From contig JBBECS010000053.1 of the NCBI GenBank assembly GCA_040881685.1, forward strand, positions 154,924-195,161: 40,238 nucleotides of DNA, read 5' to 3'. The translations under genes and the position numbers were made by a program. Positions within the stretch are counted from its first letter, which is position 1, and each line of letters begins with the position of its first letter. Shown one piece after another: positions 14,197-18,880 of this stretch. This stretch comes from Acidimicrobiia bacterium. GTDB taxonomy: Bacteria; Actinomycetota; Acidimicrobiia; IMCC26256; PALSA-555. Below the pieces are notes generated by a model. That model saw only the letters and a list, made by a program, of their open reading frames with translations, had not been told where the DNA came from and searched no databases.

Positions 14197-15420
14197 CTAC
14201 TCGGGGAGCTTGACCTGGAAGACGGCTCCATGAGACGTGATGAACACGGCGCGGTTGGAGAGGAGCGCGACGGCTGCATCGCTCAGGTTGCCGAGCCGCA
14301 CGGTCCGCGTGACCGCGAGGGCATTGCCGTCCACCTCGACCCTGAGGAGCGCGAGCTTGCTGTTGAGCAAGCCGGTGACCCATGCGATCCCGTCGAACGC
14401 GACGATGTCGGCGGCAACGAAGCCGTCGGGCAGGTCGAGATGATCGAACGGTGGCGCGGGATTGAACGCGTCCGACCGCTCGACTGCCGAGCGACCGTCG
14501 GGCGTGCGCGCGAGCCACCAAGCGTCGACGCCATCCACCGTGCCGCTGACGAACTCCGAGATCCGGCCGCTGTCGTCGAGGGCGAACGAGATCGCGTTGT
14601 CGCCCGACGGGTCGAGGCGCTTCCACTCGAGCCCGTCGGACACGTAGACACCCTTGCCAGCGTCGACGACCTCTCGGCGGTCGGTCAGGGTCGAGAGTGT
14701 GATCTTCGCGGCGAACGCGCCGGTATCGAGATCGAATCGCAGCACGCCGTCACGCACCGGGACCCACACGCCACCTCCGCTCGACACGATGCGGCCGACC
14801 GGCTGCTCGCCAGGTGGGACCGGGTTGGACTTGACCGACTCGTCGGGTCCGATCCGCTTGATGCGGAACTCCGGATCGTCGGGTCCGATCACGGTCTTGT
14901 CGTGCGTGAGCGCCCAGCGCGCGCCCTCCCCGTCGGCGAGCGACAGCACCTCTCCCTCGAGATCGATACGGTCGATCACCTTGCCATCGCGGTCGATGCG
15001 CACGATGCGTGAGGGTGGGAACGTGTACGTCGCGCCGTCACGGTTGTACGCGGCCATCGCGATCGTGCCGGCGCTGCTCGGGAGCAACGGACCGCGCACA
15101 TAGCCCTCGTCCGGCTCGAGCCGGACCCGACCGACGTCGGCCCGCCGGATGCTCTGCCCGTCGATTACCCGAGCCTTGGGCACCGAACCGGGTGCGAGCG
15201 GGACCGCGACCTGCTGCTCGGCCACCCGTTCGTCGAGGACGACGAGGCCGGCCACGACCATGCCCGCGAACACCACAGCCACCAGAGCGCCGCGCTCGAT
15301 GCGGTGGATCGTCTGGCGGCGCGCGACCTTCGCGTGAACGCGCCCGAGAACGTCTTCGGTCGATGGTTCGTGCGCCGCATCGCGGAACGCGGAATGCAGG
15401 CGGTCGTCATCCACCGGCAT
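14197..15420 (-). CDS. Membrane-anchored beta-propeller, putative anti-sigma/sensor protein
   Basis: A 407-residue protein placed directly after an ECF sigma factor gene, which it overlaps by 14 bases. A cytoplasmic N-terminal part of about 45 residues (FRDAAHEPSTEDVLGRVHAKVARRQTIHR) precedes one membrane helix (GALVAVVFAGMVVAGLVVL). About 330 residues of extracellular, strand-rich repeats of propeller type follow. Gene order, size and topology are those of an anti-sigma factor with an outside sensor domain. However, there is no HxxxCxxC zinc motif in the short cytoplasmic part, so any sigma binding would use another mode. The propeller resembles the protein encoded downstream, perhaps through duplication. 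Confidence 0.72.
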   Translation of the reverse strand: MPVDDDRLHSAFRDAAHEPSTEDVLGRVHAKVARRQTIHRIERGALVAVVFAGMVVAGLVVLDERVAEQQVAVPLAPGSVPKARVIDGQSIRRADVGRVRLEPDEGYVRGPLLPSSAGTIAMAAYNRDGATYTFPPSRIVRIDRDGKVIDRIDLEGEVLSLADGEGARWALTHDKTVIGPDDPEFRIKRIGPDESVKSNPVPPGEQPVGRIVSSGGGVWVPVRDGVLRFDLDTGAFAAKITLSTLTDRREVVDAGKGVYVSDGLEWKRLDPSGDNAISFALDDSGRISEFVSGTVDGVDAWWLARTPDGRSAVERSDAFNPAPPFDHLDLPDGFVAADIVAFDGIAWVTGLLNSKLALLRVEVDGNALAVTRTVRLGNLSDAAVALLSNRAVFITSHGAVFQVKLPE

Positions 15421-16021
15421 GGTGATCCTCCCGCTCGTCGTCGATGTCGTCGCGCAGCGCCTCGGCGAGCCCTTGCCGAGCGCGGAACAGCTGGGCCTTC
15501 ACCGTGCCCTCACCGATGCCGAGCCAGGCGGCGATCGCCGCCACGTCGAGCCCGAGGTAGTACCGAAGCGCAGTGACTTCGCGTTGGCGGCGGGGGAGCG
15601 CACGCAGTGCCTCGCGGACGGCAAGGGCGTCGCCGCTCGCGCTCGGCGCATCGGGCAGGTCGCGCTGGAGCGGAGCCAGGCGGGTGTGCGCCTTGCGTTC
15701 CGATCGCCATCGACGCATCTGGCTCCGTGCGAGGTTGAGTGCAACCGTCGTCACCCACGCGGCGAGTCGGTCGATCGCCTCACCGCGAGCCTCTCGTTCC
15801 CATGCACGCGCCATCGCCTCCTGTACCGCGTCCTCTGCGGTCGCCAGACTCCCGCACACGAACTCCACCGTCGCCACGACCTGGCGGTACTCGTCCGCCA
15901 CGAAGCTCTGGAGCCGCGCGTCCATTCCCGAGGTCAACGACGCCCCCCGGGCGACTCGGGGCGCGCGTGGAGACGCGTTGTGCACGAACGCCGTGGCGGC
16001 CACCGGGGACTCCTGGGTCAC
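15407..16021 (-). CDS. ECF RNA polymerase sigma factor
   Basis: A 204-residue extracytoplasmic-function sigma factor with only sigma2 and sigma4 regions. Sigma2 covers about residues 38-100 (FVADEYRQVVATVEFVCGSLATAEDAVQEAMARAWE, then AAWVTTVALNLARSQMRRWR). Sigma4 covers about 135-190 (ALRALPRRQREVTALRYYLGLDVAAIAAWLGIGEGTVKAQLFRARQGL). GTG 16021 has a strong GGAGGGG site eight bases upstream, so I keep it although the family usually starts near ATG 15925; the first 32 residues may be a low-complexity extension. The following propeller gene overlaps its stop. It probably directs its own operon in response to an envelope signal. Confidence 0.92.
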   Translation of the reverse strand: MTQESPVAATAFVHNASPRAPRVARGASLTSGMDARLQSFVADEYRQVVATVEFVCGSLATAEDAVQEAMARAWEREARGEAIDRLAAWVTTVALNLARSQMRRWRSERKAHTRLAPLQRDLPDAPSASGDALAVREALRALPRRQREVTALRYYLGLDVAAIAAWLGIGEGTVKAQLFRARQGLAEALRDDIDDEREDHHAGG

Positions 16022-16125: not shown

Positions 16126-16656
16126 TCACCCTCGTGACGACGTGGCCTCGAGGATCTCGGGCGTCGGCGGATCGCCGAGCCGCGGCATCGAGGCGCGCAG
16201 CTGCTCGTCGGCATCCGATCGATCGCCGGGCGTGAACCCTCGGGTCGTACAGCAGACCTCGGCCGCGATGCCGTTCGGGTCGTCGATGTAGATGGAGGTG
16301 CACCAGCCGTGGTCGATGCGAAGCACGTCGTATCCGTGGTCTCGCCACCGCGACTGCGCCGTGTCGAGCGCGCCCAGGTCGGCCGCCGCGAACGCGACGT
16401 GGTTCGTCCATGACGGCAGGCCGAGGCCGCGGCTGATCGACGCGTCGAATCCGTCAGGGATCGCCGGGTCGTCGTGCACGTCCCACACTGCGAGGCACTC
16501 GCCGCCACCGGTGTCGTAGAAGCAGTGGCGTGCCCAGCCGCCTTCCGGTGCGGGCGCGGCCTCCACCTTGGCCAGCTCGAAGCCCATGACCTCGGTGTAG
16601 AAGGCGTGCGTCGCAGCCAGGTCCCGTGTCGTGATCGCGACGTGGTGGAACGCCAT
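16126..16656 (-). CDS. VOC family (glyoxalase/extradiol dioxygenase-like) protein
   Basis: A 176-residue protein with two beta-alpha-beta-beta-beta modules of the vicinal oxygen chelate fold. Candidate metal ligands are His5 in FHHVAITTRDLAATHAFYTEVMGF, His in WTNHVAFAAADLGALDTA near residue 86, and Glu in YIDDPNGIAAEVCCTTRGF near 132, the standard H-H-E set. It could be a glyoxalase-like lyase, a dioxygenase or a binding protein; the substrate is not evident. ATG 16656 has a GAGGAG site six bases upstream. It appears to be its own small transcription unit between the YihY gene and the ECF sigma gene. Confidence 0.87.
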   Translation of the reverse strand: MAFHHVAITTRDLAATHAFYTEVMGFELAKVEAAPAPEGGWARHCFYDTGGGECLAVWDVHDDPAIPDGFDASISRGLGLPSWTNHVAFAAADLGALDTAQSRWRDHGYDVLRIDHGWCTSIYIDDPNGIAAEVCCTTRGFTPGDRSDADEQLRASMPRLGDPPTPEILEATSSRG

Positions 16657-16713: not shown

Positions 16714-17490
16714 TCATCGGGAGGCGCGTGAGTCGCGTTTGGCCTCGATGACTGCGACGTAGACGACGAGTCGGCCGAACACGAGCAGCCAGAGCAGCAG
16801 CGCGAAGACCGTCCCCAGGGCGCCGTAGAGCTCCGACGAGCTGGAGACGTAGCGCGGCACGACGTACGCGCCCATCACCTTGAGCACCTCGAGTGCCACG
16901 GCACCGATCAGCGCCGGTACGAGCAGCTGTCGCACGCGCGCCCGGCGGTTCGGGAGGATCCACGCGGTCCAGAGCCACACCGCCGTGTTCCCGCCGATCG
17001 TCACGGCGACGACGAGCGGCGCGAACGCTCCGGGGAGCAGGTCCCAGAGCGCGGTGGCCCAGCCCGCGGCGGTCAGGAGCACCGCCGCGCCGAGCAGCCA
17101 GAGCAGAGCGACGCCGCGCTCGCGCACGCCGCGAGCCGTGACGCCCAACGCCGCGTTGAATGCCGCGGCGATCGTGAGCGCGAAGCTCGTGCCGAGCCAC
17201 ACGATGCCCACGACGCCCAGCACGGTTGTCAGCCGCCGGCTGTCGCGAGCGGCGTCGACGGCGTCGTCCACGATCCGGGCTGCGTCACCCGTGAGACCGA
17301 GGTCGTTCGTCACGTCCCGGGCGAGGTGCTCGTTGCCAACCGACAGGAAGCCGAGCACCGCGACCGCAAGCACCAGGAGCGCGAAGAGAGCGAGGAACCC
17401 GTAGAGCGCGATGCCGCCGGCGAGCGCTTGCCCGCCGATCTGCGAGTACCTGCGTTGCACGTCGCGCGCCCACTCGAAGACGCCGCGCAT
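16714..17490 (-). CDS. YihY/BrkB-family inner membrane protein
   Basis: A 258-residue protein with six hydrophobic helices, matching the YihY/UPF0761 (BrkB-like) family. The N-terminal QRRYSQIGGQALAGGIALYGFLALFALLVLAVAVLGF is the diagnostic region, and the C-terminal SSSSELYGALGTVFALLLWL is also conserved. It was once annotated as ribonuclease BN in error. The function of the family is unsettled, with transport or envelope roles proposed. The ATG at 17490 is four bases after the stop of the sigma-factor fusion gene, so the two share a transcript. This places a membrane protein of unknown function downstream of a membrane-tethered regulator. Confidence 0.88.
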   Translation of the reverse strand: MRGVFEWARDVQRRYSQIGGQALAGGIALYGFLALFALLVLAVAVLGFLSVGNEHLARDVTNDLGLTGDAARIVDDAVDAARDSRRLTTVLGVVGIVWLGTSFALTIAAAFNAALGVTARGVRERGVALLWLLGAAVLLTAAGWATALWDLLPGAFAPLVVAVTIGGNTAVWLWTAWILPNRRARVRQLLVPALIGAVALEVLKVMGAYVVPRYVSSSSELYGALGTVFALLLWLLVFGRLVVYVAVIEAKRDSRASR

Positions 17491-17494
17491 CAGA

Positions 17495-18880
17495 TCAGCA
17501 CATCATCGTCTGGACGACGAACGAGCCCGAGGATGTGCTCGTATTGCCCTTTGCGTCGGTGGCAGTCACCGTCCAGGAGTAGGTGCCAAGACCGTTGAAG
17601 CTGATGGACGCGAAGTAGTTGCTCCCGCCCCCCGGGTTCATCGCCTGGAACGCCGGCGATGTCATCGCTGGGCCGCTGGCGCTCAGCGTGACCGACGCAA
17701 TGCCAGACGGATCAGTCGTCGTCGCGGCGATGCTGTTGCTGCCGGGGAAGTTGTTGAAGCACGCGGCCGCCTGTGACACCGCCAGGGACGGGCCCGCGAA
17801 GTCGGGCGGTGGCGGCTTCGCCGGTGCGACCACGGGCGTGGTCGTGGTCGGCGGGAGTGTGGTCGTGGTGACCGGCGCAGAAGAGGTCGTTGTCACCGGG
17901 TCGCGCCGCTCGGACGCCACCTCGGGTTCGCCGCCCCCGCCCCGACCGAGCGCATCCCCGATCACCACGCCGACCACCACGAGGCCGACCGCGGCCGCGA
18001 CCATCAACGGGCGCCGGCGCCGGTCGGGGAAGAGTGGCGGAGGGAAGCCCTGGCGCGCCGAGGCTCGGCGCCACCCTCCAACCGGACGGACGTTGGCGAT
18101 GTTCTGCACGCGGTCGAGCGTGAGCTTGCGCAGCGCGAGCGGAGCGGGGACGAGCGGCACGGCGGCGAGGAACGCCAACGGGCTGAGGAACTTCTTGCGA
18201 CCTTCCGAGCACGTCTCGCAGTCGTCGACGTGGCGCGCTACTCGCTTCCGCCACAGCGGGGAGTACGTGCCGTCCCAGTCCTTGAGCACCTCTTGGAGCA
18301 CCTCGCAGTCGTCGCGGCCCAGCCGCGCCACCAGCAACGCTCCCAAGGATCGCTCCACCTGGTCGCGCAGCCGGCTCATCAAGACGTACGCGTGGTCCGC
18401 GGTCGTGCCGATCGCGTCGGCGAGCTCTTGGCCGTCGAGCCCCTGGCGCAGGTGCAGGTCGAGCAGCACACGGTCGCGCTCCGAGAGTCCTGCAGCCGCG
18501 TCCCACACGATGGCGCCCGCGTCTCTCCCGCTCACGACGTCTTCCGGGCTCGACTCGTCGATGGCGACGTCCACGCCGGCGTCCTCGGTCGGTGTTGCCC
18601 GACCGCGGGCCTTCGCGCGCCGCAAAGATTCGTGACGCGCGATTGCGAACAGCCACGGGCGCAGCTTCTCGGGATCGCGGAGCTGCCCGAGGCGCTGCGC
18701 GGCGAGCACGAACGTGTCCTGCATCGCGTCGGCCGCCTCGTGCCGGTCGCGCAGCACCGAATGGCAGAAGTCGTGGAGGCGGTCGGCGTAGCGGTCGTAG
18801 ATCGCCGCGAACGCAGCCTGGTCGCCGGACCGGGTGGCCGTGACCAGCTCGGCGTCGCCTTGCACGCCGGAAGCGGGCAT
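17495..18880 (-). CDS. ECF sigma factor fused to zinc anti-sigma motif, membrane helix and extracellular domain
   Basis: A 461-residue multi-domain protein. Residues 10-95 are sigma2 (AIYDRYADRLHDFCHSVLRDRHEAADAMQDTFVLA; LRPWLFAIARHESLRRAK). Residues 127-182 are sigma4 (LSERDRVLLDLHLRQGLDGQELADAIGTT, then YVLMSRLRDQVERSL). Next, C192, H217, C221 and C224 have the exact spacing C-x24-H-x3-C-x2-C of a zinc-binding anti-sigma (ZAS) motif. A membrane helix lies at about 292-312, then a Thr/Pro-rich linker (328-360), then a strand-rich, Ig- or cadherin-like domain to the end with Cys at 374 and 461. The start ATG has a TAACCT box six bases upstream. The sigma part should stay at the membrane unless it is cut loose or changes shape. 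Actinobacterial ECF groups with C-terminal extensions are known; the ZAS identification is my own. Confidence 0.88.
   Translation of the reverse strand: MPASGVQGDAELVTATRSGDQAAFAAIYDRYADRLHDFCHSVLRDRHEAADAMQDTFVLAAQRLGQLRDPEKLRPWLFAIARHESLRRAKARGRATPTEDAGVDVAIDESSPEDVVSGRDAGAIVWDAAAGLSERDRVLLDLHLRQGLDGQELADAIGTTADHAYVLMSRLRDQVERSLGALLVARLGRDDCEVLQEVLKDWDGTYSPLWRKRVARHVDDCETCSEGRKKFLSPLAFLAAVPLVPAPLALRKLTLDRVQNIANVRPVGGWRRASARQGFPPPLFPDRRRRPLMVAAAVGLVVVGVVIGDALGRGGGGEPEVASERRDPVTTTSSAPVTTTTLPPTTTTPVVAPAKPPPPDFAGPSLAVSQAAACFNNFPGSNSIAATTTDPSGIASVTLSASGPAMTSPAFQAMNPGGGSNYFASISFNGLGTYSWTVTATDAKGNTSTSSGSFVVQTMMC

Follow-up and report, generated by a model that had tools for sequence, protein, structure and literature searches.

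In a window of 40,238 nucleotides from an Acidimicrobiia bacterium, which is the whole stretch of DNA analysed here, a single gene joins an ECF sigma factor to a zinc anti-sigma (ZAS) domain, a membrane helix and an extracytoplasmic domain. We propose, with a probability of roughly 0.6, that the product is a one-protein sigma/anti-sigma system that is held in a self-inhibited state at the membrane and is freed by proteolysis. The design itself is real and is widespread in the Actinomycetota.

The fused gene and its sigma regions

The original prediction, which placed the sigma factor, the ZAS motif, the membrane helix and the outer domain in one unbroken frame, is borne out by the open reading frame at 17495-18880 on the minus strand. 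This frame is intact, running from an ATG at 18880 to a TGA stop at 17497-17495 and encoding 461 amino acids, and a 459-aa homologue in a genome of the same genus shows 73% identity to it over the full length. An artefactual read-through of two genes was ruled out by the full-length fused homologues found elsewhere, at 73%, 53% and lower identity. The parts of the gene are as follows:

17495..18880, minus strand: whole gene, ECF sigma factor with ZAS domain, membrane helix, Thr/Pro linker and outer domain (intact ORF, 461 aa)
18590..18856, minus strand: sigma region 2, residues about 9-97 (Pfam Sigma70_r2; model helices at pLDDT 94-97)
18320..18529, minus strand: sigma region 4, residues about 118-187 (NCBIfam sigma70-ECF on residues 23-177; structure match of residues 6-182 to SigW)
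18191..18313, minus strand: zinc anti-sigma core, residues 190-230, with ligands C192, H217, C221 and C224 (invariant columns; profile matches to RsiW, ChrR and 3hug_B; pLDDT 90-96)
18098..18181, minus strand: fourth anti-sigma helix region, residues 234-261 (profile alignment through the fourth helix of RsiW; model helix 249-261)
17948..18016, minus strand: membrane helix, residues 289-311, preceded by RRRR (hydropathy 2.42; model helix 289-311; positive-inside pattern)
17801..17947, minus strand: Thr/Pro/Ser-rich extracytoplasmic linker, residues 312-360 (sequence; pLDDT mostly below 50)
17498..17800, minus strand: outer Ig/PKD-like beta domain, residues 361-461, with Cys374 and Cys461 (strands 365-456; Z 10-11 to collagenase PKD domains; conserved Cys pair)

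The sigma2 and sigma4 regions are supported by profiles and by structure alike. The NCBIfam model sigma70-ECF (TIGR02937) matches residues 23-177 with 61.3 bits against a cut-off of 42.9, Pfam Sigma70_r2 matches with 41.5 bits against a cut-off of 24, and the structural model of both regions could be matched to SigW. Pfam region 4 by itself was undetected in the 461-aa protein; it was matched by 23 of the 35 homologues. The protein has regions 2 and 4 only, with the ECF profile above its cut-off, as is required of an ECF sigma factor.

The gene lies in a genome of 3.1 Mb. A gene for a BrkB/YihY-type membrane protein (16714-17490, minus strand) begins 4 bases past its stop and is followed by a small gene (16126-16656, minus strand), an order that is kept in a genome of the same family (L006/L014) and not in L005 of the same genus, while the divergent upstream neighbour is a YhhN-family gene. 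An additional, ordinary ECF sigma factor gene is located close by, at 15407-16021 on the minus strand. No shared promoter of the kind expected for self-regulation was evident by eye upstream of four close homologues. The same genome also carries a second sigma-ZAS fusion that has no membrane helix (L089 1459-2277, minus strand; G000:C54:112446-113066), which is 272 aa long when read from a TTG, ends about 25 residues past HLAACAAC and reaches into the 5' end of a gene for a multi-helix membrane protein. At three other sites in this genome an ECF sigma gene has a zf-HC2 match next to it (G000:C2:93927-94635, C44:4723-5392 and C28:69677-70236), and these are apparently ordinary two-gene pairs.

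The zinc anti-sigma domain

The spacing C192-x24-H217-x3-C221-x2-C224 given in the original prediction is exact in the sequence, and the fusion that was spotted from raw sequence is real, though the Pfam zinc-finger model zf-HC2 misses it, scoring 11.8 bits against a cut-off of 22.2. Only 4 of 35 homologues were matched by zf-HC2 at E 0.01. Because this model falls so far under its cut-off, independent tests of the ZAS part were needed; Pfam alone is uninformative here, and it is conservation together with profile searches that reveals the domain. In 35 fused homologues the four zinc ligands are the only invariant columns, and the same four columns were again invariant among 66 sequences that included Streptomyces-type proteins. 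The 35-row alignment was limited to motif-bearing ORFs, the motif-free hits there all being short ORFs (109-225 aa) that lack the extension. Since both of these sets had been picked by Hx3Cx2C, the count was redone with no motif filter on 87 distinct relatives, comprising all hits that span the region, which were collected with a profile built from motif-bearing sequences. C192, C221 and C224 are each kept in 86/87 of these relatives and H217 in 87/87, and these are the top four conserved positions across the whole sigma and ZAS stretch, which rules out a chance motif. L116 (G240:C9) is a fused relative with W, H, S and A at the four ligand positions, three of the ligands being lost, and its extension may thus be retained in the absence of zinc.

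When residues 184-262 were compared as a profile with all PDB sequences, the top distinct molecules were RsiW (E 8e-5), ChrR (0.002) and 3hug_B (0.003), the last of which we take to be the RslA anti-sigma factor of M. tuberculosis; the alignment to RsiW extends through its fourth helix. In an AlphaFold2 model of the full fusion, built with 35 sequences, helices are predicted at residues 193-198, 208-220, 222-230, 234-240 and 249-261, with a pLDDT of 90-96 over the zinc core. No PDB match was found for a model of the isolated ZAS part (pLDDT 77). A failure of residues 185-230 to be conserved, or to be predicted as ZAS helices, had been named beforehand as what would count against the reading; the ligand counts and the pLDDT over the core both go the other way. 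With its conserved Hx3Cx2C, an upstream Cys/His ligand and a sequence relation to proven ZAS domains, the extension has the sequence characters of ZAS class I.

Predicted closed form and topology, and proposed release

The original prediction had also suggested a tethered, self-inhibited sigma factor, and the model is in keeping with this. Its sigma2 and sigma4 regions can be superimposed as a whole on SigW of the SigW-RsiW complex (157/157 residues, 3.6 A, Z 15.1) and on CnrH of the CnrH-CnrY complex (154/154 residues, 2.7 A), whereas RNA polymerase-bound ECFs differ from it by about 27 A, that is, they match domain by domain only. Foldseek concurs with the structure alignment on this arrangement. 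As the whole fit is to SigW and CnrH and not to the polymerase-bound proteins, what the model predicts is the inhibited state, with sigma2 and sigma4 held in the arrangement seen when an inhibitor is bound.

Hydropathy, sequence and the strands of the model agree with the membrane helix, Thr/Pro linker and strand-rich outer domain that had been read from the sequence. The helix spans residues 292-310 by hydropathy and 289-311 in the model, and the RRRR ahead of it fits the positive-inside rule for an N-in protein. Where the two sides differ, 66 of 74 relatives have more Arg/Lys on the inner one, and an N-in topology is predicted for the fusion. A GFP(P/R) motif lies just inside the membrane helix (18034-18048, residues about 278-282) and is present in 25/83 relatives, mostly of the clade to which the fusion belongs. 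The outer part of about 100 residues is all-beta and PKD/Ig-like, with Z of about 10-11 to the PKD domains of the collagenases ColH and ColG when the model is aligned to them. Cys374 and Cys461 are, as originally noted, the sole cysteines outside the membrane, but the redox-sensitive disulfide suggested for them is unlikely. Most proteins of the clade of the fusion have exactly two cysteines in the outer part, spaced by about 80-95 residues, and the pair is absent from relatives with other outer ends; a pair that recurs at this spacing argues for a fixed structural bond. From the sequences, Cys374 and Cys461 probably form a structural disulfide that fastens the end of the chain to the first strand.

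The most likely course of events for this protein is that the cytoplasmic ZAS domain (residues 190-261) would fold onto its own sigma2 and sigma4 and hold both closed, and in this form they would be barred from docking on RNA polymerase and from binding promoters. The membrane helix would tie the protein to the membrane, and the Ig/PKD-like domain may perceive an envelope cue, with the Thr/Pro linker possibly reaching into the cell wall. A site-1 cut outside would be followed by an intramembrane cut by a site-2 protease, and degradation of the ZAS part in the cytosol would then free the sigma factor to act on its putative target genes. The steps after folding are drawn from RsiW (PMC5358783) and IutY (PMC8999054). 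RsiW has a CHCC site (C3, H30, C34, C37), is controlled by intramembrane proteolysis and is insensitive to oxidation (PMC5358783), and the ligand pattern of the fusion equals that of RsiW. A site-2 protease gene with a strong match (Peptidase_M50, E 3e-41) is present in the genome, but this says little, since Peptidase_M50 genes were present in 14/14 control genomes. PrsW was dropped as a site-1 protease, as no homologue of it was found in this genome.

In another reading the CHCC site is itself the sensor, such that cytosolic thiol oxidation would form a C192-C221/C224 disulfide, expel the zinc and open the protein as in RsrA, leaving the sigma factor to act tethered or after a later cleavage. 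The C-x24-H-x3-C-x2-C ligand set is indeed of the type found in RsrA (C11, H37, C41 and C44 in one published model, with a Cys11-Cys44 disulfide; PMC3961337), but RsiW, with the same CHCC, still holds SigW when oxidised (PMC5358783), which makes a switch driven by redox alone, as in RsrA, less likely. A sensor at the zinc site would also make the conserved outer module unnecessary, and L116 keeps the fusion despite its lost ligands, and we consider this explanation unlikely. A reversible change of shape, pulled from outside by ligand binding or wall tension, with no cleavage and with the sigma factor working at the membrane, would suit the single membrane helix and long linker seen in nearly all relatives as well as the wide variety of their outer modules. 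It is nevertheless improbable, in that IutY, the closest experimentally studied fusion, requires proteolysis (PMC8999054) and a sigma factor held at the membrane would have to reach promoters while tethered. That the extension serves chiefly to anchor the protein in the membrane or to stabilise it, leaving the sigma factor uninhibited, is very improbable, for although development was still partly delayed in an S. coelicolor strain with the SCO4117 sigma domain only (PMC5826349), the ligands are conserved above the sigma residues in the 87 relatives, the profile matches true anti-sigma domains and the model is closed.

Relatives and comparison with known systems

The survey for the same fusion that had been proposed was carried out on 396 Actinomycetota genomes, and fused relatives were found in many families. 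Those that are named come from bins of Actinomycetota from lakes and other environments, and some of these bins bear the label Acidimicrobiia. The outer modules vary among the relatives: some have a further Ig domain that is BACON-like, others end in a different short stretch or a Pro-rich tail, and CAP, beta-helix and NPCBM domains occur as well. In the tree, the fusion groups with proteins of its own class (8 rows, 100/99), and this clade is nested in a 32-row set (96/92) together with mycobacterial fusions. The f66/g117 genomes that carry the latter are taken to be Mycobacterium because two of them contain 72 and 83 PE genes, and the g104 genomes, which are large and have NPCBM-ended fusions, are presumably Streptomyces. 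A tandem pair of fused sigma-ZAS genes is present in one presumed Mycobacterium genome (L115, G165:C1:4895800-4901500), and CAP or beta-helix outer domains occur on fused sigma factors of presumed Streptomyces (L102, L104, L109 and L112).

The fusion design is not new. The original prediction had treated a complete ZAS motif in such an extension as the open point, but this had already been published for ECF48, ECF52 and ECF53 of the Actinobacteria (PMC8999054) and for SCO4117 (PMC5826349). The C-terminal fusions of these three groups include a zinc finger, likely of ZAS type, along with one or two membrane helices; their extensions reach up to 400 residues, and they are expected to act via proteolysis (PMC8999054). 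SCO4117 of Streptomyces coelicolor, an ECF52 protein with a zinc finger, a membrane region, a Pro-rich stretch and a carbohydrate-binding domain (PMC5826349), is the only such Actinobacterial protein that we found reported as characterised in the literature. Our analysis adds to this how strongly the ligands are conserved, a model in the closed form, a position in the tree and a view of how varied the outer modules are.

Judging from its clade, shared with the presumed Mycobacterium fusions, the 461-aa protein is perhaps an ECF48 member, this being the best candidate. ECF48, compared here by its description, has a fused zinc finger (likely ZAS) and a membrane helix as in the present protein, and its cited representative is mycobacterial (PMC8999054); the mycobacterial fusions, unlike the 461-aa protein, end in Pro-rich tails that lack an Ig domain with two cysteines. 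In SCO4117, too, a single protein carries the sigma domain, a zinc finger, a membrane region and a Pro-rich stretch as well as an outer domain (PMC5826349), but this outer domain is a carbohydrate-binding NPCBM where ours is Ig/PKD-like. Membership of ECF52 was ruled out, as no NPCBM match was found in the 461-aa fusion and an AU test rejected one clade of the fusion and the NPCBM group (p 2.8e-6). ECF52-type proteins with an NPCBM end were present in Streptomyces-like genomes of the scan. ECF53, again compared by description, has its parts in the same order (PMC8999054), and the other Streptomyces-like fusions, with CAP or beta-helix ends, form a clade separate from the 461-aa protein. Bacillus SigW-RsiW shares the CHCC ZAS sequence relation and, in the model, the inhibited arrangement of sigma2 and sigma4, but comprises two proteins where here there is one. 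IutY (ECF243) of Pseudomonas putida combines sigma factor and membrane anti-sigma factor in one protein and is released by proteolysis, whereas for our fusion release is proposed by inference; IutY serves Gram-negative iron signalling, is activated by Prc and RseP (PMC8999054), and its group is listed apart from ECF48, ECF52 and ECF53.

We tentatively suggest that the Acidimicrobiia proteins may be an undescribed subgroup, with a disulfide-locked Ig/PKD-like sensor on a wall-spanning linker, and that the sigma and ZAS cassette with its many outer modules may constitute a general one-component receptor platform of the Actinomycetota. The prediction that the chain adopts the closed form of RsiW-held SigW is open to structural test. 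With sigma and anti-sigma factor in one chain their ratio is fixed at 1:1, and signalling from the outside to the promoter becomes a one-gene affair, while the relatives show how broadly the cassette occurs and how freely its outer part changes.
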